Below are positions 35,015 to 60,094 of a stretch of 64,000 nucleotides of DNA, one piece after another. A program made the translations under genes and the position numbers. A model generated the notes under the pieces. That model worked only from the letters and a program-made list of their open reading frames with translations, did not search any database and was not told the origin of the DNA. Origin of the DNA: Spiroplasma endosymbiont of Cantharis nigra. Lineage in GTDB: Bacteria > Bacillota_I > Bacilli_A > Mycoplasmatales > Mycoplasmataceae. Location: assembly GCF_964019925.1 (NCBI RefSeq), contig NZ_OZ026470.1, positions 372,001 through 436,000 on the forward strand, given 5' to 3'. The number at the start of each line of letters is the position of its first letter. Position 1 is the first letter of the stretch.

Positions 35015-35869
35015 TTAGATATCTTTTACACATCTAAAACCCATATTACCAGCAGTTGATCTTGGTGCAGTTCCATTTCTAGAATATACTTTATATCTTT
35101 TACAAAAACCATCATGACATAAGTATGAACCACCCCTTATGGCATAATCTTTATTTTCATTAATTTCTAAATTAGATATTTCATTAGTTTTCTTTTTTTG
35201 AAAATATTCTAAGGAAACATTTTTTGCATTTATACATCATTCTCAAATATTTCCTAACATTTGATAAACTCCATAACCATTTGGTTCAAAACTTTTTGCT
35301 GGAGCTAAATCTAAGAAACCATCTTCTAATGTATTCCCAAACGGAAAGTCTCCATTTCAAATATTTAAATTATGCTTATTATTTTGTTTTAATTCATTTC
35401 CTCAACTAAATTTATTTTGTATTAAACCACCTCGAGCTGCATATTCTCATTCCGCTTCGGTTGGCAATCTTTTTCCAGATCATTTGCAATATTCAATAGC
35501 GTCATATAATGAAACATGAACAACGGGGTAGTTCATTTTATTTATAATATTTGATTTAGGACCTTGAGGGTGTTTTCAATTTGCACCAGGAACATCAAAT
35601 CAAATACCCATTAAATCTGCTTTTTGATATTTAAGTCTTTCTTCTTTATTTAACAAAGCTGCAAATACAAATGAATTACCAAATTTTTCTGCTTCAGTTA
35701 TATAGTTAGTTTCATTAATAAATTTTTGAAATTCTTCATTTGTGACAGAAGTTTCATCGATATAAAAGCCATTAATCTCTATAAGAGTAGGAGGGCCTTC
35801 TTTATCATAAATAAAACCATCTTCAGATTCACTTCCCATTAAAAACTTACCACTTTTTATTAAAATCAT
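35015..35869 (-). CDS. Formylglycine-generating enzyme (sulfatase-modifying factor)
   Basis: This 284-residue protein belongs to the FGE/SUMF1 family, which oxidises a Cys of sulfatases to formylglycine. Visible motifs are GKFLMGSESEDG, ETSVTNEEFQKFI, YPVVHVSLYDAIEYCKWSGK, RLPTEAEWEYAARGG and, near the C-terminus, GGSYLCHDGFCKRY with the active-site cysteines C251 and C256, then MGFRCV. GGAGG precedes the ATG. No signal peptide is seen, so it acts in the cytoplasm. It is divergent from a TauE-type permease and a sulfatase that has the matching target motif. Functional pairing is strongly suggested. Confidence 0.92.
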
Positions 35870-35948
35870 AATTCCTCCATTAATATAATTATAGAATTTT
35901 TTCCAAAAAATGCAATTATTATTGTAAAATTTATTTGGAGATATAAAA

Positions 35949-36779
35949 ATGGGAATTACATTACTATGATTATCTATTATTGTTTTATTGATCTCAATAT
36001 TGGGATCAATTTCAGGAGTTGGAGGAGGGGTACTTTATGTTCCCTTATTTCTAGTATTCTTAAATGATGAATTGAATGAGATAAAATATATATCTACATT
36101 TTTAGTATTTTTAGGTTCCTTTATGAACGTTGCAATTGAAATAGTAAAAAAAAGACTTAACTATAAAATTTTATTAGTAGGAGTCGTCTTTTCAACAATT
36201 TCTATTTTAATTGGAAATGTAATATCTAAAAGTATTAATTCAGATGCTGTAATTAAAATTATTGTAGCAGTAACATTAATTATTGTAACTTTTATGTTAA
36301 TTTATTCAGAATATTTCTTAAAAGTAAAAGATAATAGTCAAAAGCAATATAAGCTTAATAAAAACTTTTACATAATAAATAATGAGGGTGATAAAATTAA
36401 TATTATTTTATTATCTTTAATTTCATTTATTGGTGGAATTATAACATCTTTAACTGGAATGGGTGGTGGTCCTATAATAATGCCTCTACTTATAATTATT
36501 TTTTCTTTAAAAATTAGTTCTGCAGCACCAATTTCACATTCTTTAATCATGGTTTCATCATTTATCTCTTTAATCTTAAATCCAATATCTATGGGTTATA
36601 ATCCATGAGTTGTTAAAGAGATTTGAGTCAAGAATTTAGTTTTTGCTATACCAGTTATACTTGGTTTTATTGCAGCTATATATTTAAAAAAAGTTATTAA
36701 AAAAGAAATTTATATTAAGTGACTATTAATAATTGTCATTTGAATTTCTATCATAAAAATAATTTTAGATTTAATTTAA
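35949..36779 (+). CDS. TauE/SafE-family permease (probable sulfite/sulfate-anion exporter)
   Basis: This 276-residue membrane protein has eight predicted helices and the family's duplicated glycine motif: ISGVGGGVLYVPL near residue 22 and LTGMGGGPIIMPLL near residue 172. TauE/SafE members move sulfite, sulfoacetate or other organic sulfur anions. It sits between the FGE gene and the sulfatase, which suggests it removes the sulfate released in the cytoplasm. TTGGAG is 9 nt before the ATG. Substrate inferred from context. Confidence 0.85.
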
Positions 36780-36861
36780 ATAAAATTTATTACATTGAAT
36801 TCATTTTCATAGTAATAATTCCAAAAATGTATATTAATTTTGGAATATTTACTATATTATA

Positions 36862-36887
36862 TTTGTAGGCTACTATTAGTCTACAAA
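36862..36887 (+). promoter_or_regulatory. Inverted repeat before the sulfatase, candidate operator
   Basis: TTTGTAG-N12-CTACAAA lies between a TATATT-like -10 (about 36854) and the ribosome site AAAGGAG. It could be an operator or a hairpin next to the Shine-Dalgarno. Confidence 0.4.
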
Positions 36888-36896
36888 GGAGAAAAA

Positions 36897-38435
36897 ATGA
36901 GAGCAGTTATATTAATGTTTGATACTTTAACAAGAAAGTATTTACCTAATTATGGTAATGATTGAGTTCATGCACCAAATTTTAAAAGACTAGGCGAAAG
37001 AACAATGACATTTGATAATTTTTATGCAGGAAGCATGCCATGTATGCCTGCAAGAAGAGAAATACATACGGGAAGATATAATTTTTTACATAGAGATTGA
37101 GGTCAATTAGAACCTTTTGATAACTCAGTATTTGAGCATTTAAAAAATAGTGATATTTATACACACTTAACAACAGATCATTGACATTACTGAGAAGATG
37201 GTGGAGGAACTTATCATACAAGATATAATACTTGAGAAGGATTTAGAGGTCAAGAATATGATCAATGAATTCCTGCAGCATATGGTAAAAATCACGAACA
37301 ACCTCATAAAAATAATATAAATACTTTTTTTGACCCAAAAACTAGACCAGAGAAATATAATTTTTTGAAATATGGAAAATCTAATTTAGCACATTTAACG
37401 CAAGATGATACAAGTTATCCTAGTGTACAAACAATGTTATCAGGAATTGAGTTTTTAAAAGGTCATAAGGATTTAGATGATTGGTTACTACAAATTGAGT
37501 GTTTTGACCCTCATGAACCGTTTGTAACTCCTCAAAAATATCGAGATATTTATGATGCCAAATATACAGACAATATTCCTAATTGACCTAAATATAGTCA
37601 CTATGATGAAGAAAAAGATGCAGAAACAGTTAAGAAACTTCAAATAGAATATGCTGCATTAATTTCAATGATAGATGTTTATTTAGGAAAAATTTTAGAT
37701 TACTTTGATGAAAATGATTTATGAAAAGACACAATGTTAATTGTAAATACAGATCATGGGTTCTTAACTGGTGAACATAACTTTGTTGGTAAAACAGCAG
37801 CACCTTGATATGATGAATTAATTCATACGCCATTCTTTTTACACATTCCAGAATTTTCAAATATGGATGGAAAAAGATTTGACAAGTTATGTCAAACAAT
37901 TGATATAGCTCCAACTTTATTGGATTATTTCAAGTTGGAAAATAATTTTGATCAAGATGGAAATTCAATTTATGAAGCTCTAAAAAAAGATCAGAACAAT
38001 CACAAAGAAATTTTATTTGGAAATAATGGTGGTCATGTAAATATATATGATGGAAAATATGTTTTTATGAAAGCATCTAAAAGTGAAGCAAATTTCCCAA
38101 ATACTCAGTATACTTTAAATTTTAATTTTATGAAGGGGTTCTTACCAAGTTTCTTTTTAAATAATATGGAGTATGTAAAGGGAACACGATATTCAAATGG
38201 AATGCCAATGATGAAATATAATTTACAAGAATTTCCTATGACACCAAATTCATTTAAATATGGGGATTTATTATTTGACTTAGAAAAAGATCCAAAGCAA
38301 TTAAATCCATTAAAAGATAAAAAAATTGAATTAATGATGATTAAAAAATTAATTAAAAAAATGAAATCTGTTGATACACCTCCAGAGGTTTATGAAAGAA
38401 TTGGTTTAACAGAAGAGGCATTAAAAATAGATTAA
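36897..38435 (+). CDS. Cys-type (formylglycine-dependent) sulfatase, cytoplasmic
   Basis: This 512-residue alkaline-phosphatase-fold sulfatase has metal Asp in MFDTLTR (D9) and the FGly motif C-x-P-x-R as GSMPCMPARREIHTGR, with C49 as the residue to be oxidised. Second metal residues are in VNTDHGFLTGEHNF near residue 286. HWHYWEDGGGTYHTRY resembles a subgroup of Firmicute sulfatases. No signal peptide is present, so the substrate must be inside the cell. An FGE lies divergently and a PTS permease follows 38 nt later, so a sulfated sugar taken up by the PTS is the likely substrate. Exact substrate cannot be told. Confidence 0.92.
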
Positions 38436-42188: not shown

Positions 42189-42325
42189 CATTTAATAGTT
42201 TATACTATAAAATTTATTATTTTTTTATATAAATTGAAAGTATAAAAGTGTTTATATTATTTATTTTATTTTCAACTTTTTTCTATAAGTTGATTTTTTA
42301 TTTTTATTTGAGAGTATTAACTCAC

Positions 42326-42350
42326 AACTAAACAAAAAAGTTTAGTTTTT
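42326..42350 (+). promoter_or_regulatory. Hairpin in the nrdD leader
   Basis: AACTAAAC (42326-42333) pairs with GTTTAGTT (42340-42347) and is followed by TTT. It lies 41 nt before nrdD and could be an attenuator-like terminator or regulator site. Confidence 0.4.
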
Positions 42351-42390
42351 AAATTTTAAAAATGATATATATTTAAAAGGGGTATATTAT

Positions 42391-44514
42391 ATGAAAGAAA
42401 ATAAAAGTTCTTGTAAAAATATTACTATAGAATTTAATCAAGTAATTTCAACAATAAATAATGATATTAAAAATGAAAATGCAAATATGAATGGTGATAC
42501 ACCAAGTGGTAAAATGATGAAATTTGCTTCAATATCAGCAAAAAATTTTGCATTGGAAAATTTAGTTAAGTTAAAGCATGCAGAGTTACATAAAAGTTCA
42601 TTAATTCATATTCATGATTTGGATTATTATGCTACAAAATCAGCAACTTGTGTTCAATATAATATTGAGGAAATATTTAATAATGGTTTTAAAACAAAAA
42701 ATGGTTTGATTAAAGAACCTCAATCAATTGGCGTATATGCTGAGTTAGCATCAATTATTTTTCAAACGGCGCAAAATGAAATGCATGGAGGACAATCAAT
42801 TCCAGCTTTTGATTATTTTATGGCTCCAGGAGTAAATAAAACTTTTAGAAAAATTCTTTTAGAAAAATTAAAGAACTTCTTATTTTTTTTAAACATAGAT
42901 TTTGATAAAAATAAAATAAATGATATAAAGAAAGATGAAAGTATAAAGTTTAAAAATTTAAAAAGAGAAATGCTTAATTTATATTTACCAAAAATTAATA
43001 TCTCCCAAAAAGATTTTGATAAAATAAATCAATTAACAATTAAAGAGACAATTAGAGAAACTAATCAAGCAATGGAAGGTTTTATTTATAATCTAAATAC
43101 TCAACATTCAAGAGGGGGCAATCAAGTTGTTTTTTCTTCAATAAATTTAGGAACTGATACTTCAAATGAGGGAAGACAAGTTACAAAATCATTATTTAAA
43201 GCTTTAGAAAAAGGATTAGGAAATGGTGAAACCTCAATTTTTCCAATAGTTATTTTTAAAGTTAAGGATTTAGTAAACTTTCAAGAAGAAGATTACAAAA
43301 AAGCAATGAATCAAAGTCAGGAAGAATGATTCAATGAAAGTAATATTTGAAATGTCAAAAACTTTGATTTATTTTTAGAAGCAATTAAAACAACGGGTAA
43401 AAGATTATTTCCAAATTTTATGTTTTTAGATCAAAAATATAATCAACATCAGTTATGAAATGAAAATGATAGTAAATCTTGATATTATGAACCAGCAACA
43501 ATGGGATGTCGTACAAGAGTTTTTGAAAATATTAATGGTGAGAAAACATCAGTTGGGCGAGGGAATTTAAGTTTTACTTCATTAAATTTACCTTATATAG
43601 CATTAGAACTTTTAGAAAAAGAAGGTTTTTTTAAAAATGAAATAATTAATTACTCTAAAATTAATTCTTCAAAAATAAAAACATTATTTTTAGAAAGGGT
43701 TAAATATTATAGTCAAGAAATTTGCAATCAATTAAAAATTCGATATGATTATCAAATAACAGCTATTGCAAAAGAATTTCCATTTCTAATGAGCAATAAT
43801 ATTTTATCTGGGGGAATTAATTTAAAATCACAAGATTTTGTAGAAGATGTTTTTAAGCAAGGAACGTTAACAATTGGATTTGTTGGTTTGGCAGAAGCAT
43901 TAAAAGCACTGTTAAACTTCCACCATGGTGAAAATGACGAAGCACAAAAATTTGGATTAGAAATTATAGAAGTTATTAACAATGTTTCACTTATATGAAA
44001 AGAAAAAACTCACTTAAATTTCGGAGTTATAGCAACACCAGCAGAGTCAGTTGCAGGTAGAATGGCAAAGCAAACTAGAAAAGTTTTTGGCTTAGTATCT
44101 GGAGTTACTGACAGGGAATACTTTACAAATTCAAATCATATTCCAGTTTATTATAATATTAGTGCTATTGAAAAAATTAAAAGAGAAGCAGAATATCACC
44201 TATTAACTTTGGCTGGTAACATAAGTTATGTTGAATTAGATGGTGAAGCTAAAAAAAACTTACATGCTGTTCTTTCTATAATTAATGCAATGCGAATTCA
44301 TGGAACAAATTATGGAAGTTTAAATCATCCTGTAGATAGATGCAAAAAATGTAATTATACTTCTTTAATTCCCTTATATTGTCAAATGTGTAATAGTAAA
44401 GAAATTTCAAGAACTAGAAGAATTACAGGATATTTAGTTGGAGACTTAGAGTGTTGAAATAAAGGAAAGCAGGCTGAAGAATCAGAAAGAGTAAAGCATA
44501 AAATTAAAAATTAA
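42391..44514 (+). CDS. nrdD: Anaerobic (class III) ribonucleoside-triphosphate reductase
   Basis: This 707-residue glycyl radical enzyme makes deoxyribonucleotides without oxygen. It shows [11 protein letters not shown] and [10 protein letters not shown], the active-site cysteines, the C-terminal zinc site CKKCNYT...CQMCNS and the glycyl radical loop [10 protein letters not shown] with the radical Gly at about residue 680. It lacks a clear N-terminal ATP cone; the protein starts close to the catalytic domain, so dATP control may be absent. AAAGGGG precedes the ATG. The activase nrdG overlaps its stop codon. Class III enzymes are uncommon in mollicutes, which mostly use NrdEF. Confidence 0.93.
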
Positions 44515-45014
44515 TGAAAATACTTAAAATTTTTAAAGAAACAATAAGTGATGGTCCTGGAATTAGATACTCTATTTATATTGCTGGATGCTTGCATGCT
44601 TGTTATGGTTGCCATAATCTTTTGAGTTGAAATTTCAGAATAGGAAAAGACTTTGACAAAGAATATGAAAAAGAAATTATCTCAGAAATTAAATCAAATT
44701 CATTATTAAATGGAATTACTTTTAGTGGTGGAGATCCAATGTTTAGTGCAATTGAATTGTTACCTTTTGTAAAAAAACTAAAAAAAGAAACTGGTTTAAA
44801 TATATGACTATATACAGGTTTTACTATAGAAGAAATAATAGCAAAAAAAGATAATTCTAATGAGAAAGAATATTCTATGTACAAATTATTACTTGAAATA
44901 GATACATTAGTAGATGGTAGATTTGTAAAAGAGTTATATGACCCTAATATTCTATATAGGGGAAGTTCAAATCAACGATTAATTGATGTAAAAAAATATT
45001 TTAATTTACTTTAA
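44514..45014 (+). CDS. nrdG: Anaerobic ribonucleoside-triphosphate reductase activating protein
   Basis: This 166-residue radical SAM protein has the CxxxCxxC cluster motif in [11 protein letters not shown] and the SAM-binding [11 protein letters not shown]. It installs the glycyl radical on NrdD. Its ATG shares one base with the nrdD stop codon (TAATG), so translation is coupled. Length fits the family (about 155-170). Confidence 0.93.
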
Positions 45015-45018
45015 ACTT

Positions 45019-45069
45019 AAAAAACATTTTTTATTTAAATTTAAATGTTTTTTTTTTTTTTTTTATAAT
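45019..45069 (+). promoter_or_regulatory. Terminator hairpin running into a 17-T tract and TATAAT
   Basis: AAAACATTT (about 45020-45030) can pair with AAATGTTTT, ending nrdDG. The T run 45048-45064 (17 T) then passes directly into TATAAT (45064-45069), the likely -10 box of the next RpiR gene. The T tract would fill the promoter spacer. Confidence 0.55.
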
Positions 45070-48365: not shown

Positions 48366-51020
48366 ATGAATTTAAATTTATATGCACCAGTTGATGGTGA
48401 AATAAAGGGCATCCAAGATTGTTCAGATTCAATGTTTGCAGATCGTATGTTAGGTGATGGATTTGTTATTATTCCAGAATCAAATGACTTTAAAGCTTTT
48501 TTTGATAAAGCAACAGTCACAATGATATTTGACACATATCATGCATACGGTTTTGATGTTGATGGATTAAAGTTTTTAATTCATTGTGGAATGGATACAG
48601 TAGCATTAAATGGAGAGGGATTCACTACTAATTTAAAAGTTGGAGATAAAATATCTAGAAAAAGTGATATTTTTAGTGTTGATTTAAATTTATTGAAAAA
48701 AAAGAAATTATTAAGTGAAACCCCAATAGTATTTGAAATGAGTGATTTAGCTGATTATCAAATAAATAATTTAAAATTAGGAAAAGTAAAACAAGGTGAG
48801 TTAATTTGTACAATTAATTATGAGTTTAAATCAGAAATTAAAGAAACAAATGTAAATAGTAAGACAGATGCTGTTGAATTCTTTAGTGTATCAAACAAGT
48901 ATGAAAAAAATGCTAAGTTAATTAATAAGTTTATCGGTAATCAATCAAATTATAATGAAGTATACAATTGCATGACAAGACTTAGGTTTAGCATTAAAAA
49001 TAAGGAACAAGTAAATATTGATGAAATAAAGAGATTAGAGCTTGTTAAAGGTACTGTTTGAAATGGTAATGAATTGCAAATTGTTATTGGCCAAGATGTT
49101 TATAAATTAAAGGAGGAGGTTATAAAACTTAACAATCAATCCTTGGCAATAAAAGCTTCAATAGGACTTAATAGTTCAAAAGTTTCTTTAGGAAGAAAGT
49201 TTTTATCAATGTTTTCAGGAATTATGGTCAAAATAATTCCTGTAATGGTCGGAGTTGGTTTAATTCAAGCTGTTATGGCTATTTTAATGCAAGCAGAAAT
49301 AATGCCCAATATTGTCTTTAAATTAAGTGAAAATTCAGGAATAAATGATGTTTTATTTAAAGATGCTGCAATAGGGTGAATAGTCTTATTTGCAATGGCA
49401 AAAACAACAACCTATTTTATGGGAATAATGATTGCAGTTTCTGCAGCTAATTATTTTAAATTAGATAGTTTAATGGGTATAGCGCTTGGACTTATTCTTT
49501 GTTGTCCTTTAATGTTTGGAGATGGTGGCAGTCTTGGTATAGGAAATGATTTTCTTTTATTAGATTTAGGAAATATTAATACTGGAAATCCTATGTTAGA
49601 TCAAATAACTAAAATAAAGATTAATGCCATGAGTACAAAGGTCTTTGTTATTGTAGGTGCAATATATACAGCTAAAAAATTAGATATTTGATTAAAAAAA
49701 GTAATTCCAGTTGCATTGGAACTAATGTTTAGACCGTTTATTATCATTATTTTGATTGTTCCGTTATCATTTTTTGGTTATGGAATTGCTTGAAACTTTA
49801 TTGAAACTTTATTTGGAGCATTAATGTTCTATATCGGAAAAATTCCTTTAGGAATTGGAGTTGGTATATTTGTATCAATGTGGCAAGTAGCAGTTATTTT
49901 TGGTTTACATTTAATGTTGGGATTAATTTCCTTTCTTGACCGTTTGTCTCCAGCAACAGGTGGTCAAACAGTATATGGTATTGCTGGTTCAATTTCAGTA
50001 TGATCTCAAGTTGGAGCATTGATTGGAGTAATATTAATTACTCAAAATGCTAAATTAAAGAAACAAGGAATAGGTATGCTTCCAGCTGGATTACTTGGTA
50101 TTACAGAACCAATTCTTTATGGAATTAATTTACCTAAAAAAAGACCATTAATTTCAGGGGTATGTGCAGCTTTTATTGCTGGAGCCTTTGCAAATATTAT
50201 TGGAGTTACACAAAGAGCACAAAGTGGAATTGGAGTATTTGAAGCAATTGGTTTCTTCTCAGATCCAATTTATGGAGGTACTGGAAAACTTAATCCTGCT
50301 ATCAATGGTTCATTTTATTTATTAGCTAGTTTATTAGCAGTATCAAGTGCAATACTTTTCAGTATGTTATCTTATAAAGAAAGAGAAACAGAAAAAACCT
50401 TATTAAATAAAACAATTAGTAAATTAAAGTTATTAACAATATTAGAATTAAATTTAAATAAAGAAGACACAACAAAATTAAAAAAAGAGTTAGATGAAGT
50501 TAATAATCTTTTAGATAAAGAAGCTATTAATTTTATTAAAACTATTGAAAAAAATATTCAAACTTGATTAAGATATAAAATTAAATTGAGTACTATAATT
50601 GAAAAAGAAGAAATTGAAAAAGAAAAAATAATAATTAAAGGTAAGAATTTAATTAGTAAAAAGAAATTTGATTTAGCAAATATTTATATGCAGAAATATA
50701 ACTCAATTGATAATTCTGAGAAAATAAATTTATTAAAAATAAAAATTGATAATCAATATAAAGTAATTGAGTTAGAAAAATTAAATAAAAATATTTCAAA
50801 ATTAAAAAAATTAATTTTAGAAAAATTAGAAAAATCAAATTTTATAAAAAAAGAAAATATAAATGAATTAGAGCCAATAATATTTAATAATTTAAATAGT
50901 GTTCAAATTTATTATGGGTTATTAGAAAATAAGATACCAAAAATTAATTTAAATGAAAAAATTTATTATATAAAAAATAGTAACTCTCTAAATAAGGAGA
51001 AGGTGAATCTAAATGTTTAA
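48366..51020 (+). CDS. PTS glucoside-family permease EIIABC (paralogue 1, intact)
   Basis: The protein has 884 residues. EIIA has H59 and the phospho-His H73 (FLIHCGMDTVAL); EIIB has phospho-Cys near 202 (YNCMTRLRF). EIIC has about ten helices with FGDGGSLGIGNDF, IFGLHLMLG and LLGITEPILYGINLPKKRP. The coiled-coil tail of about 220 residues ends in NNLNSVQIYYGLLENKIP, a stretch also seen in paralogue 3. AAGGGGG precedes the ATG. A ROK remnant overlaps its end and GH1 genes follow, indicating beta-glycoside uptake. Confidence 0.92.
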
Positions 51021-54688: not shown

Positions 54689-54704
54689 AATGAGGAGGAA
54701 AAGA

Positions 54705-57332
54705 ATGGAAATTAATTTATATTCACCAGTTGATGGTGAAATTAAAGAATTAAAAGAATGTAGCAATGAAATGTTTGCTAAAAAAATGCTAGGTGATGGT
54801 TTTATTATAATGCCAGCATTGGATAATTTTAATGGTTTTAGTGATAAAGCAACAGTGACTATGGTTTTTAAAGCATACCATGCTTATGGTTTTAATATTG
54901 AAGACTTAGATTTTTTGGTTAATGTTGGAATGGATACAATTGCCTTAAAGGGAATTGCATTTTCTACAAAATTAAAAATCGGGGATATAGTTAATAAAAG
55001 CGATAGTCTTTTTAAAGTAGATTTAAACTATTTAGAAAAAAATAATTTATCAAAGGAAACAGCTATTGTTTTTGATATTAATGATTTAAGTGAATATAAA
55101 ATAAATAATTTAAAAATTGGTAATGTTAAACAAGGAGATTTAGTTTGTACAATAACATATAATTTTTTTCCTAGAAATCAAAAAAAAAAAAAAAATTAGA
55201 ATCCTCTATAGATCCAAAAGAGTTTTTTAATTTTTCTAATAAATATGAAAATGCTGCAAAATTGATTAATCAATTAGTAGGTGGCAATTCTAATTATGAA
55301 GAGATATATAATTGTATGACAAGATTAAGATTTAAAATAAAAAATAAAAACTTAGTCGATATTGAAAAACTTAAGCAAGTTAATCTAGTTAAGGGAATTG
55401 TTTGAAATGGCTCTGAATTGCAAATTGTAATTGGGCAAGATGTCTATAAAGTAAAAGACGAAGTAATAAAACTAAACGATTATTCAATAGCAATTAAAAA
55501 TAAATTAGTTTATAAAAATGAAAATGTATCTTTTATAAGAAAATTGTTAGCAATGCTATCGGGAATTATGGTTAAAATAATTCCAATAATGGTGGGGACA
55601 GGTTTGATTCAAGCAATTATTGCTATTTTAATTCAAACCAATGTAATGCCCAATATTATTTTTAATGAAATACAACAAGAGGGAATATTAATAACAAAAG
55701 CAGGCATTGGTTGAGTTATTTTATTCATTATAGGTGTTTCTAGTAACTATTTTATGGGAATAATGATTGCAGTTTCTGCAGCTAATTATTTTAAATTGGA
55801 AGGACTTATGGGAGTTTCTCTTGGTGTTATTCTCTGTTCACCATTACTTTTTGGTGATGGAGGTCGTTTAGGGATGGGAAATGATTTTTTAATCTTTGAC
55901 TTTGGAAACATTAATACTGGAAATCCTATCCTAGATGAAATAACAAAAATAAGAGTTAATACAATGAATACTAAAATATTTGTTATTATAGCTGCCATAT
56001 ATACAGCAAAAAAATTGGATACTTGATTAAAAACAGTAATTCCAGTAGCTTTAGAATTAATGTTTAGACCATTTATTGTAATTATATTAATTTGTCCTTT
56101 AACATTTTTTGGCTATGGAATTATTTGAAATTTTTTTGAAACTTTATTTGGTTCATTAATATTTTATATGGGAAAAATTCCTTTAGGAGTTGGAGTTGGT
56201 ATATTTGTTGCTATGTGACAAGTAGCAGTAATATTTGGATTACATATGGTACTTGGCATCATATCAATGATTGACCATTTAGCAAATGGGGGACAAAGTG
56301 TTTATGGTATTGCTGGTTCAATTTCAGTATGATCTCAAGTTGGTGCTTTAATTGGAGTTATCTTAATTACTCAAAATGCAAAATTAAAAAAGGAGGCAAT
56401 TGGAATGCTTCCTGCTGGATTTCTTGGTATTACAGAACCAATTCTATATGGAATAAATTTACCAAAAAAAAGACCATTAATTTCCAGGAGTAGCAGCTTC
56501 ATTTATAGCAGGAGCATTTGCCAGTCTTTTAAATGTAACTAAAAGAGCAAATACTGGGATTGGGGTATTCGAGTTAATTGGTTTTTTTGCAGAGCCTCAA
56601 TTAGGTGGAAAAGGAGCAATTAGTCCAATTGAAAATGGTTCATTTTATTTATTAGCATGTATAATATCAATTTCATTGGCTATTGCTTTTAGTATGATGT
56701 CTTATAAAGAAAGAACAAGTGAAAAAACATTGTTAAATAAGACAATTAAAAATCTGATTATTTCAACTAAATTGGAACTAGGTTTAAATAAACAAGATGT
56801 TATTTCTTTAAAAGAAAAGTTAAATAAAGTTTCAACAATTTTAGATAAAGAGACTTTAAAATTAATAAAAGCTAGTGAGAAAAATATTCAAACATGATTA
56901 AAACTAAAAGAAAAAACAAATAGTCTAATTGAAAAAAGCGAATTAAAGAAAGAAAAAATAATATTAAAAGGTAAGAATTTAATAAGTAAATCAAAATTTG
57001 ATTTAGCAAAAATCTATATAAAAAAATATAATAATATTGATAATTCTCAAAAAATAAATACGTTAGATCAAGAAAGTAAAGAATTATTTAAAAAAATAGA
57101 TTTTGAGAAATTAAACTCTCGAATTTCAAAAATTGAAAAAAAAGTTGTAGAAGAAATTTTAAAATCAACTTCTCTTAATAAGAATATTCATAATGAACTG
57201 AATGCAATCATTTTTAATAATTTAAATAGTCTTCAAATTCACTATGATTTATTAAAAAATAAGGAGCAAAAAATTAATTTAGATTTATTTATAATAAATC
57301 TAAAAGATAGGAATTTAAAACATCAATTATAG
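54705..57332 (+). pseudogene. PTS EIIABC permease paralogue 2, twice frameshifted and EIIA His lost
   Basis: The original protein would be about 875 residues, like its neighbours. The EIIA domain has N73 in FLVNVGMDTIAL where paralogues 1 and 3 have His. The frame then breaks in a 16-A tract (55180-55195) just before EIIB (YNCMTRLRFKI), and again near 56485 in the EIIC motif RPLIS-G, where one extra C is present. The last part (tail coiled coil) resumes to 57332. I chose the ATG at 54705, 7 nt after GAGGAGG. The loss of the EIIA His suggests decay began before the indels, unless the domain was already dispensable. Confidence 0.87.
55180..55195 (+). repeat. 16-A homopolymer at the frameshift in the PTS gene
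   Basis: The run lies inside the coding region between EIIA and EIIB. Loss of one or gain of two A would rejoin the frame up to the second break. Confidence 0.85.
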
Positions 57333-57466: not shown

Positions 57467-60094
57467 ATGGAAATTAATTTATATTCACCAGTTGATGGTG
57501 AAGTAAAAAAAATTCAAGAGTGTAATGATTCAATGTTTGCTGATCGCATGTTAGGCGATGGAATAGTTGTTATTCCAGAATCAAATAATTTTAAAGCTTT
57601 TTTTGATAAAGCAAGAGTTACTATGATATTTGATACGTATCATGCATATGGTTTTGATGTTGAAGGTTTACAATTTTTAATTCACTGTGGAATGGATACA
57701 GTATCGCTTAATGGTAAAGGTTTTTCTACAAAATTAAAAGTTGGAACTAAAGTTCTTAAAAATGATGATATTTTTACAGTCGACTTAAATTTATTAAAAG
57801 AGAAAAATATTTCAAAAGAAACACCAATTGTATTTGAAATTAATTCTTTAATTGAGTATACAATTAAAGAATTAAAAGTAGGTAAAGTTAAACAAGGAGA
57901 TTTACTTTGTAAAATATCTTATACCTTAAAAGAAAAACAAGAAGATCAAGATTTGAAAACAATAACAGACCCAGTTGAATTTTTTAATGTTTCAAACAAA
58001 TATGAAAAAGGAGCAAAATTAATTAATCAATTTGTTGGAACTAAGAGAAATTATAATGAAGTATATAATTGTATGACAAGATTGAGATTTAATATTAAAA
58101 ATAAAGAAAAAGTTGATATTGAAGCAATCAAAAAAGCTCCACTTGTTAAGGGAGTAGTTTGAAATGGGCCCGAGTTACAAGTTGTAATTGGTCAAGATGT
58201 TTATAAACTAAAAGATGAAATAGTAAAGTTAAATACTGAAGAGCACACTTTAAATGTTTCAATGGGTCTTAATAGTGAAAAAGAGACTTTTTTTAGAAAA
58301 ATGTTAGCAATGCTTTCGGGCATTATGACAAAAATAATTCCTATAATGGTTGGAGCGGGTTTGGTTCAAGCAATTATAGCAATTTTAATGCAAGCAGGAA
58401 TTATGCCCAATATTGTCTTTAAAAGTCCAGGACCTAATGATGTTTTAATAACAGAAGCAGGAATTGGATGAATAATTCTTTTCATTGTTGGTAGGTCAAC
58501 TACTTATTTTATGGGAATAATTATTGCAGTTTCTGCAGCTAATTATTTTAAATTAGAGGGACTTATGGGAGTTGCTCTTGGTGTTATTCTCTGTTCACCC
58601 TTACTATTTGGTGATGGAGGACGTTTAGGAATGGGAAATGATTTTTTAATCTTTGATTTTGGAAACATTGACACTGGAAATCCTATGCTAGATGAAATAA
58701 CAAAAATAAGGATTAATACAATGAATACAAAAATATTTGTAATTGTTGGTGCAATATATACTGCAAAAAAATTAGATACTTGATTAAAAAGAGTAATTCC
58801 AGTAGCTTTAGAATTAATGTTTAGACCATTTATTGTTATTCTTGTAGTTAGTCCTTTATCATTTTTTGGTTATGGAATAGCTTGAAATTTCTTTGAAACA
58901 TTATTTGGTGCATTAACATTTTACTTAGGTCAAATACCAATTGGTATTGGAGTTGGTATATTTACAGCTATGTGACAAATAACTGTTATTTTTGGTTTAC
59001 ATATTATGTTAGGAATGATCTCAATGTTAGAGCATATTTCAAATGGGGGTCAAAGTATATATGGAATAGGTCCATCAATATCAATTTGAGCACAAGTTGG
59101 AGCATTAATTGGAGTTATCATAATTACTCAAAATGCAAAACTAAAAAAAGAGGCAATTGGTATGCTTCCAGCGGGATGTCTTGGTATTACAGAACCAATT
59201 CTTTATGGAATTAACTTACCTAAAAAGAGACCTCTAGTTTCAGGGGTATGTGCAGCATTTATAGCTGGGGCATTTGCAAATATTATGGGTGTAACACAAA
59301 GATCACAAAGTGGTTTAGGAGTTTTTTCAGCTATTGGTTTCTTCTCTGATCCAATATATAATGGTGAAGGAAAACTTTCGCCAGTATCAAATGGTCTAAT
59401 TTATCTAGTAGCATGTGCAATGTCAATTTCTCTAGCAATACTTTTCAGTATGTTAAGTTATAAAGAAAGAGAAACTGAAAAAACCTTATTAACTAAAACC
59501 TTTAGAAAGATAACTACTATATCATTATTAGAACTAAATTTAAATAAAAATGATCTTCAAAAAATGAAAACAGAGCTGAAAGAAAATTTAAATCTTTTGG
59601 ATAAAAACACTTTAAGCTTAATAAAATCTGTAGAAAAAAATATTCAAAAATGACTAAAATCAAAAGAAAAACTAAATTCTTTAATTTCAAGTGAAGAGAT
59701 GAAAAAGGAGAAAATAATTAATAAAGGAAAAAAATTGGTTGCTAATAAAAAATATGAAAAGGCGCAATTTTATATAAAGAAATATAATGAAATAGATAAT
59801 CTTGATAAAATTAATTTATTAAAGATTGTAATTGAAAATCAATATAAACTTATTGATTTTGAGAAATTAAATCAAACTATAGATAAAATTAATAAAGGTA
59901 TTAATAAAAATATTTCAAACTCTAAATTCATTAATAAAGCCATAAAAAAAGATATTCAAGCAATTATTTTTAATAATATAAATAGTGTCCAAATTCACTA
60001 TGGTTTATTAGATAATAAAATACCAGATATCAATTTAAATGAGATAATCAATGAGAAAATAGCAGAAAAAAAATTATTAAAAAGTAATCTATAA
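57467..60094 (+). CDS. PTS glucoside-family permease EIIABC (paralogue 3, intact)
   Basis: This 875-residue protein is closely similar to paralogue 1 over its whole length. H59 and phospho-His H73 (FLIHCGMDTVSL), EIIB Cys (YNCMTRLRFNI) and the EIIC motifs (FGDGGRLGMGNDF, CLGITEPILYGINLPKKRP) are all present. The coiled-coil tail of about 220 residues ends with NNINSVQIHYGLLDNKIP. AGGAGGG is 7 nt before the ATG. Long DNA stretches are almost identical to paralogue 2 (for example around 55760-56020 and 58515-58780), so recombination between copies is possible. Confidence 0.92.

Follow-up and report, generated by a model that had tools for sequence, protein, structure and literature searches.

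The window, a 64,000-nucleotide stretch of the chromosome of a Spiroplasma endosymbiont of Cantharis nigra, contains two adjoining genes for a class III (anaerobic) ribonucleotide reductase (RNR): nrdD, encoding the catalytic subunit, and nrdG, encoding its predicted radical S-adenosylmethionine (SAM) activase (Table 1). We translated both genes with genetic code 4, under which nrdD is a single frame with six in-frame TGA codons read as tryptophan; under code 11 there is no intact frame, only fragments. The ATG of nrdG begins on the last base of the nrdD stop codon, a 1-base overlap, and a likely ribosome-binding site sits 8 bases 5' of the nrdD ATG. NrdD matched the NRDD family (PF13597) over residues 29 to 703 (E = 1.5e-171) and the NCBIfam NrdD models above their cutoffs, with E values down to 9.5e-252. 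NrdG matched TIGR02491, also above the cutoff (E = 2.8e-49). With both genes intact and matching their families, the class III RNR that a preliminary description had recognized in this mollicute is confirmed. An inverted repeat in the nrdD leader was considered as a conserved operator and rejected; relatives do not have it at that position, and it is probably not a shared operator. A search of the window for Rfam matches and tRNAs found none.

TABLE 1 Features of the nrdDG locus in window coordinates, with genes given from the ATG to the end of the stop codon
Feature	Position	Strand	Evidence
nrdD, class III RNR catalytic subunit, 707 aa, without ATP cone	42391..44514	+	family profiles, residues, model
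nrdG, radical-SAM activase of NrdD, 166 aa, CLHACYGC	44514..45014	+	family profiles, residues
Likely ribosome-binding site of nrdD, AAAAGGGG	42375..42382	+	direct sequence reading, inference
Possible intrinsic terminator 3' of nrdG: AT-rich inverted repeat, then long T run	45021..45065	+	direct reading
Short perfect inverted repeat AACTAAAC-N6-GTTTAGTT in the 260-base nrdD leader	42325..42350 (approximate)	.	sequence

The residues of both proteins bear out the motifs noted earlier. The radical loop of NrdD reads RITGYL, with the radical glycine at Gly680, and is invariant in two alignments (A2 and A3); four cysteines (Cys651, Cys654, Cys664, and Cys667) make up the zinc site. The finger loop, Met371-Gly-Cys373-Arg (MGCR), holds the thiyl residue Cys373 as its single cysteine. 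Cys87 lies on the first barrel strand, and on the sixth strand Asn392 takes the place of a third cysteine. In NrdG, residues 26 to 33 form the CX3CX2C radical-SAM motif. We built an AlphaFold model of NrdD from an alignment of the window sequence and its relatives (27 rows; mean pLDDT, 83). Its best fold matches were to Prevotella copri NrdD (PDB 8p23 and 8p2s; TM-score 0.84, approximately 40% identity), which has the same fold, order of residues, and formate-type active site (PMC11226230). The catalytic, zinc, and radical residues of the window NrdD align with the named residues of the P. copri enzyme, including Cys171, Asn435, and Gly711 (PMC11226230; the PDB chain numbering is that of the paper plus 4). 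An MGCR loop together with Asn at the position of Asn392 is the arrangement of formate-using NrdD enzymes (PMC9669993, PMC11226230). By its finger loop and Asn392, the window NrdD is likely to be formate dependent (NrdD1-like).

A search for nrdEF elsewhere in the genome, which is assembled as one contig of 1.24 Mb, revealed a class Ib RNR: nrdF, nrdI, and nrdE adjoin at approximately 953 to 957 kb of the chromosome. NrdE is encoded in all 20 genomes of the genus (g1) and NrdD in 14 of them. Having both an aerobic and an anaerobic RNR is common in this Spiroplasma-like genus, and the operon is not the exception that the preliminary description took it to be. Three genomes of the sister genus g3 also encode NrdD. 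In the NrdD tree (SH-aLRT supports from a quick tree search), all three fall with the g1 proteins in one clade with support of 100, and the two genera are sisters in the rpoB tree. Genus g5 has an intact NrdD in one genome and a broken one, a pseudogene, in G198. The NrdD of G109 is placed separately in the NrdD tree, away from the g1 and g3 clade. The nearest outsiders to the g1 and g3 clade (support, 83) are NrdDs of Fusobacteriota and of Bacilli from other orders, approximately 46 to 52% identical.

NrdDG appears to have been inherited mostly vertically in the g1 and g3 clade, with several losses. The rpoB tree repeats the NrdD subclades {G118, G183, G177}, {G085, G097, G168}, and {G000, G020}, the last pairing the window's genome (G000) with its sister species. 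The six genomes of the genus without NrdD are scattered over the rpoB tree, a placement that reads as losses, and one loss can be seen directly. By rpoB, G088 is the genome closest to the pair G000/G020, and it has no intact nrdDG. At the corresponding locus (G088:C1:662000-673000, L205), the flanks are kept at approximately 81%, a 33-codon relic of nrdD remains, and nrdG is interrupted by stops and frameshifts; since relics of both genes are retained at the same place, G088 lost nrdDG.

The same scatter of NrdD-less genomes could be produced if NrdD had instead spread within the genus by repeated horizontal exchange. The chromosomal position of nrdD differs between species, and the trees conflict over G165, which groups with G085, G097, and G168 in the NrdD tree (support, 96) and with G121 in the rpoB tree (support, 83); some exchange within the clade is therefore possible. 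As the general explanation, repeated exchange is nevertheless unlikely, given that the two trees agree on most subclades and that the deletion in G088 is fresh. A second alternative is that this species acquired nrdDG recently and privately, by transfer, while adapting to an anoxic insect gut. The patchy presence of nrdDG in the family and its absence from so close a relative as G088 might seem to favor such a gain, but within the genus clade the window NrdD sits beside that of the sister species G020 (95% identical), and the relics in G088 mark a loss; we regard this alternative as very improbable. Of the gain by transfer suggested in the preliminary description, what stands is that transfer is plausible for the origin of the g1 and g3 clade, as it is for the separate NrdD of G109. 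A recent gain by this species does not fit, and the largely vertical descent of an operon common in the clade is what that description had said would speak against its proposal. A close phage source was also considered and rejected. Scanning viral contigs (viral_contigs) with a single NrdD protein gave no match, and an alignment-based viral scan recovered 80 distant phage NrdDs, the best approximately 45% identical. The phage records are all below 60% identity, too distant to support such a source.

Additional RNR genes were observed in a few genomes of the genus. G118 has a second, shorter NrdD-like gene besides its usual NrdD (G118:C1:1036887-1038554, L049). A second, divergent large chain of the class I/II type is found at G073:C1:1236614-1238311, G141:C1:1027523-1029220, and G076:C2:112029-113724, the last of these in pieces.

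Pyruvate formate-lyase was found in 9 of the 14 NrdD-bearing species of the genus and in 1 of the 6 NrdD-less species. It was not found in the remaining five NrdD bearers, the window's genome among them, or in g3, and formate must have another source in some species, perhaps peptide deformylase or uptake. The lack of this enzyme in the window's genome, together with the repeated losses in the genus and the NrdD pseudogene in G198 of another genus, might be taken as signs that the operon is decaying or inactive. However, both frames are full length with all catalytic residues present, and the NrdD frame is kept at 95% identity in the closest sister, G020, making decay highly unlikely.

The absence of an N-terminal ATP cone, also proposed in the preliminary description, held up in each analysis that addressed it. 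The window NrdD aligns from residue 15 with residue 103 of the P. copri chain, so that only 14 residues precede the aligned region; P. copri NrdD carries an N-terminal ATP cone and is inhibited by dATP, unlike the cone-less window protein. A Pfam ATP-cone scan gave no match in the window NrdD; of its family, four NrdDs were scanned, the separately placed protein of G109 included, and none was matched. The same scan matched NrdDs from Fusobacteriota (L002 and L108), from family f3 of the same order (L016 and L057), and from family f20 of another order (L195). PF03477 went unmatched in all 20 genomes of the genus, although 12 of 14 control genomes gave a match; by this test, NrdE of the genus has no cone and NrdR is absent. 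In the AlphaFold model, the N terminus is one helix (residues 3 to 19) followed by the catalytic core. That a cone exists and was overlooked, because the start was misplaced, the gene is divided, or the cone is on another chain, is scarcely credible: an NrdD gene elsewhere in the class is indeed split, at its other end, but the frame upstream of nrdD is closed 15 codons before the ATG, PF03477 matches nothing in the genome, and the model shows no cone.

NrdD without a cone is an already known form. It accounts for 24% of the 2,426 class III proteins in one survey count (PMC4390871, Table 2) and includes the enzymes of phage T4 (1h78 and 1hk8) and Thermotoga maritima (4u3e and 4coi) (PMC11226230). 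These are only distant kin of the window NrdD, with approximately 25% and 14% identity, respectively, in the fold matches. Among the nearest outsiders in the NrdD tree, in contrast, those tested (approximately 47 to 52% identical to the window NrdD) bear a cone, as judged by Pfam for a Fusobacteriota metagenome-assembled genome (MAG) (L002) and an Ilyobacter plasmid (L108) and by N-terminal length and sequence for the Bacilli (L068-L071).

Considered together, these results make it very probable that nrdDG is a working class III RNR operon of the formate type that was present without a cone in the ancestor of g1 and g3, has been inherited mainly vertically with several losses, and has the class Ib enzyme as its aerobic partner. 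Because the genome also keeps nrdFIE, NrdDG most likely supplies deoxynucleoside triphosphates (dNTPs) without oxygen. Under anoxia, NrdG would cleave SAM and set a radical on Gly680 of NrdD, which would act through Cys373 to reduce nucleoside triphosphates. Formate is the likely electron donor because of the single-cysteine MGCR loop and Asn392. As the N-terminal ATP/dATP on-off domain is missing, dATP would have no cone through which to halt overall NrdD activity; the core presumably retains its specificity control. When oxygen is present, the class Ib enzyme encoded elsewhere on the chromosome would serve. The common ancestor of the genus and its sister genus would already have had the cone-less NrdD, passed on mainly vertically thereafter and lost several times. 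It is reasonable to view the operon as a putative adaptation to anoxic surroundings. The failure to find an ATP cone in the genus, whether on an RNR or on an NrdR, has a bearing on the control of dNTP pools in these reduced genomes.

A search of genomes of the same order revealed that NrdD matches in family f3 end before the radical loop (L038-L043, L057, L303-L312, and further genomes). The main chain in f3 runs from an ATP cone through the barrel to the first zinc pair (YCxxC) and stops shortly beyond it. Another open reading frame (ORF), located behind nrdG or elsewhere, holds the second zinc pair and the radical loop (e.g., ...CPVCGSHDIQSVSRITGYLSLDERFG...), so that the zinc site is divided between two chains. 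With a profile built from six such ORFs, we found a free-standing small radical-loop protein of approximately 60 to 90 amino acids in all 41 f3 genomes with a truncated NrdD; the matches in G146, G246, and G258 were weaker (3e-8 to 3e-7) and were confirmed by reading. All of the 30 truncated NrdD loci read, which include repeats of the same genome, have a C..C pair near the chain end, and the small ORFs read carry CPxC and R(I/V)TGYL. For each type of split, a single small protein was scanned, and its significant matches were to the C-terminal end of NrdD models.

Several one-piece explanations of the f3 and f20 arrangements (intein, intron, frameshift, and stop read-through) were set aside. 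Each predicts a constant order of the pieces, but 17 of the 41 f3 assemblies have the small gene on another contig than nrdD, and some others have it behind nrdG or further genes. In both families its frame relative to NrdD varies, and most starts have their own purine-rich AGGAG-like site. Contamination of the f3 MAGs was likewise rejected, as their NrdD genes read TGA as sense and group in a single clade. No match to PF02867, the large chain of class I and II RNRs, was found in 40 of 42 of these f3 genomes, which are drafts 51 to 94% complete. A few f3 genomes hold a further, one-piece NrdD copy. Because of the draft assemblies and these extra copies, the split NrdD is only a candidate for the sole RNR of any single genome.

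A second form of division occurs in f20, a family of the same class (L194-L209 and L298-L300). At 18 loci read, an NrdD that retains the zinc ribbon ends in a stop codon, followed after 1 to 49 bases by a small ORF of approximately 50 to 67 amino acids and then by nrdG. Five other f20 genomes have a one-piece NrdD. In phage contigs L258, L265, L275, L278, and L279, NrdD lacks the loop and a free loop ORF lies approximately 1.2 to 1.9 kb downstream; joining of the two by splicing in trans is a possible alternative for these contigs. Phages L256 and L261 have a break inside RITG that is intron-like, and we left them out of the count. At a locus in f23 (L210, G320:C1:2175000-2179000), NrdD stops immediately short of the radical loop and no small gene adjoins it, which may be due to a sequencing error, decay, or another split.

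In a joint NrdD tree, f3 forms one clade apart from f20, and the split label needs six changes, two of them forced by starred branches. The deep joins of this tree are unsure because of long branches. The break points differ, being inside the zinc ribbon in f3 and after it in f20, and they offer a better argument than the tree for what appear to be separate origins. From the gene sequences, we consider it likely that these are split class III RNRs in which a small protein supplies the radical glycine, that this form arose at least twice among relatives of the window's organism and of its class and also occurs in phages, and that in many of these draft genomes it is the only RNR found. The window's own NrdD is in one piece.

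Searches of open-access literature found no report of a split class III RNR and none on NrdD in Spiroplasma, in each case weak evidence of novelty. A split class I RNR is known from a phage. Two divided RNRs resemble the split NrdD but are not class III: the class II NrdJab of P. aeruginosa, encoded by two genes (PMC4520616), and the phage RNR, whose gene is in pieces (reference 46 in PMC3322345). YfiD/GrcA is a free glycyl-radical domain, as in the split NrdD, but it serves as a repair part for another enzyme, pyruvate formate-lyase, while the split NrdD has its radical domain on the separate chain and nowhere else; spare parts for other glycyl radical enzymes have been thought possible (PMC8683613). 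We speculate that a small subunit cleaved by oxygen might be exchanged, much as YfiD repairs its enzyme but in an obligate role. The split NrdD in relatives is a wider result than the window enzyme and of more weight. It bears on the question, raised in PMC8683613, of whether spare-part glycyl radical proteins exist beyond pyruvate formate-lyase, and it offers natural two-piece class III enzymes in which one could study how the radical site is assembled, how NrdG activates it, and how it is replaced once damaged by oxygen.

Two other features of the window were observed. At 35015-38435, a gene for an FGE-type sulfatase-maturing enzyme (PF03781) adjoins one for a sulfatase in which the CxPxR motif reads PCMPARR. 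Enzymes of the FGE family need oxygen for sulfatase maturation, which suggests that the organism also meets oxygen. At 54690-57332, a PTS permease gene is broken into three frames, interrupted first where 16 A residues follow one another (55180-55195), and full-length paralogues are found on both sides (48366-51020 and 57467-60094). The broken gene could be a pseudogene or could contain a run of variable length.
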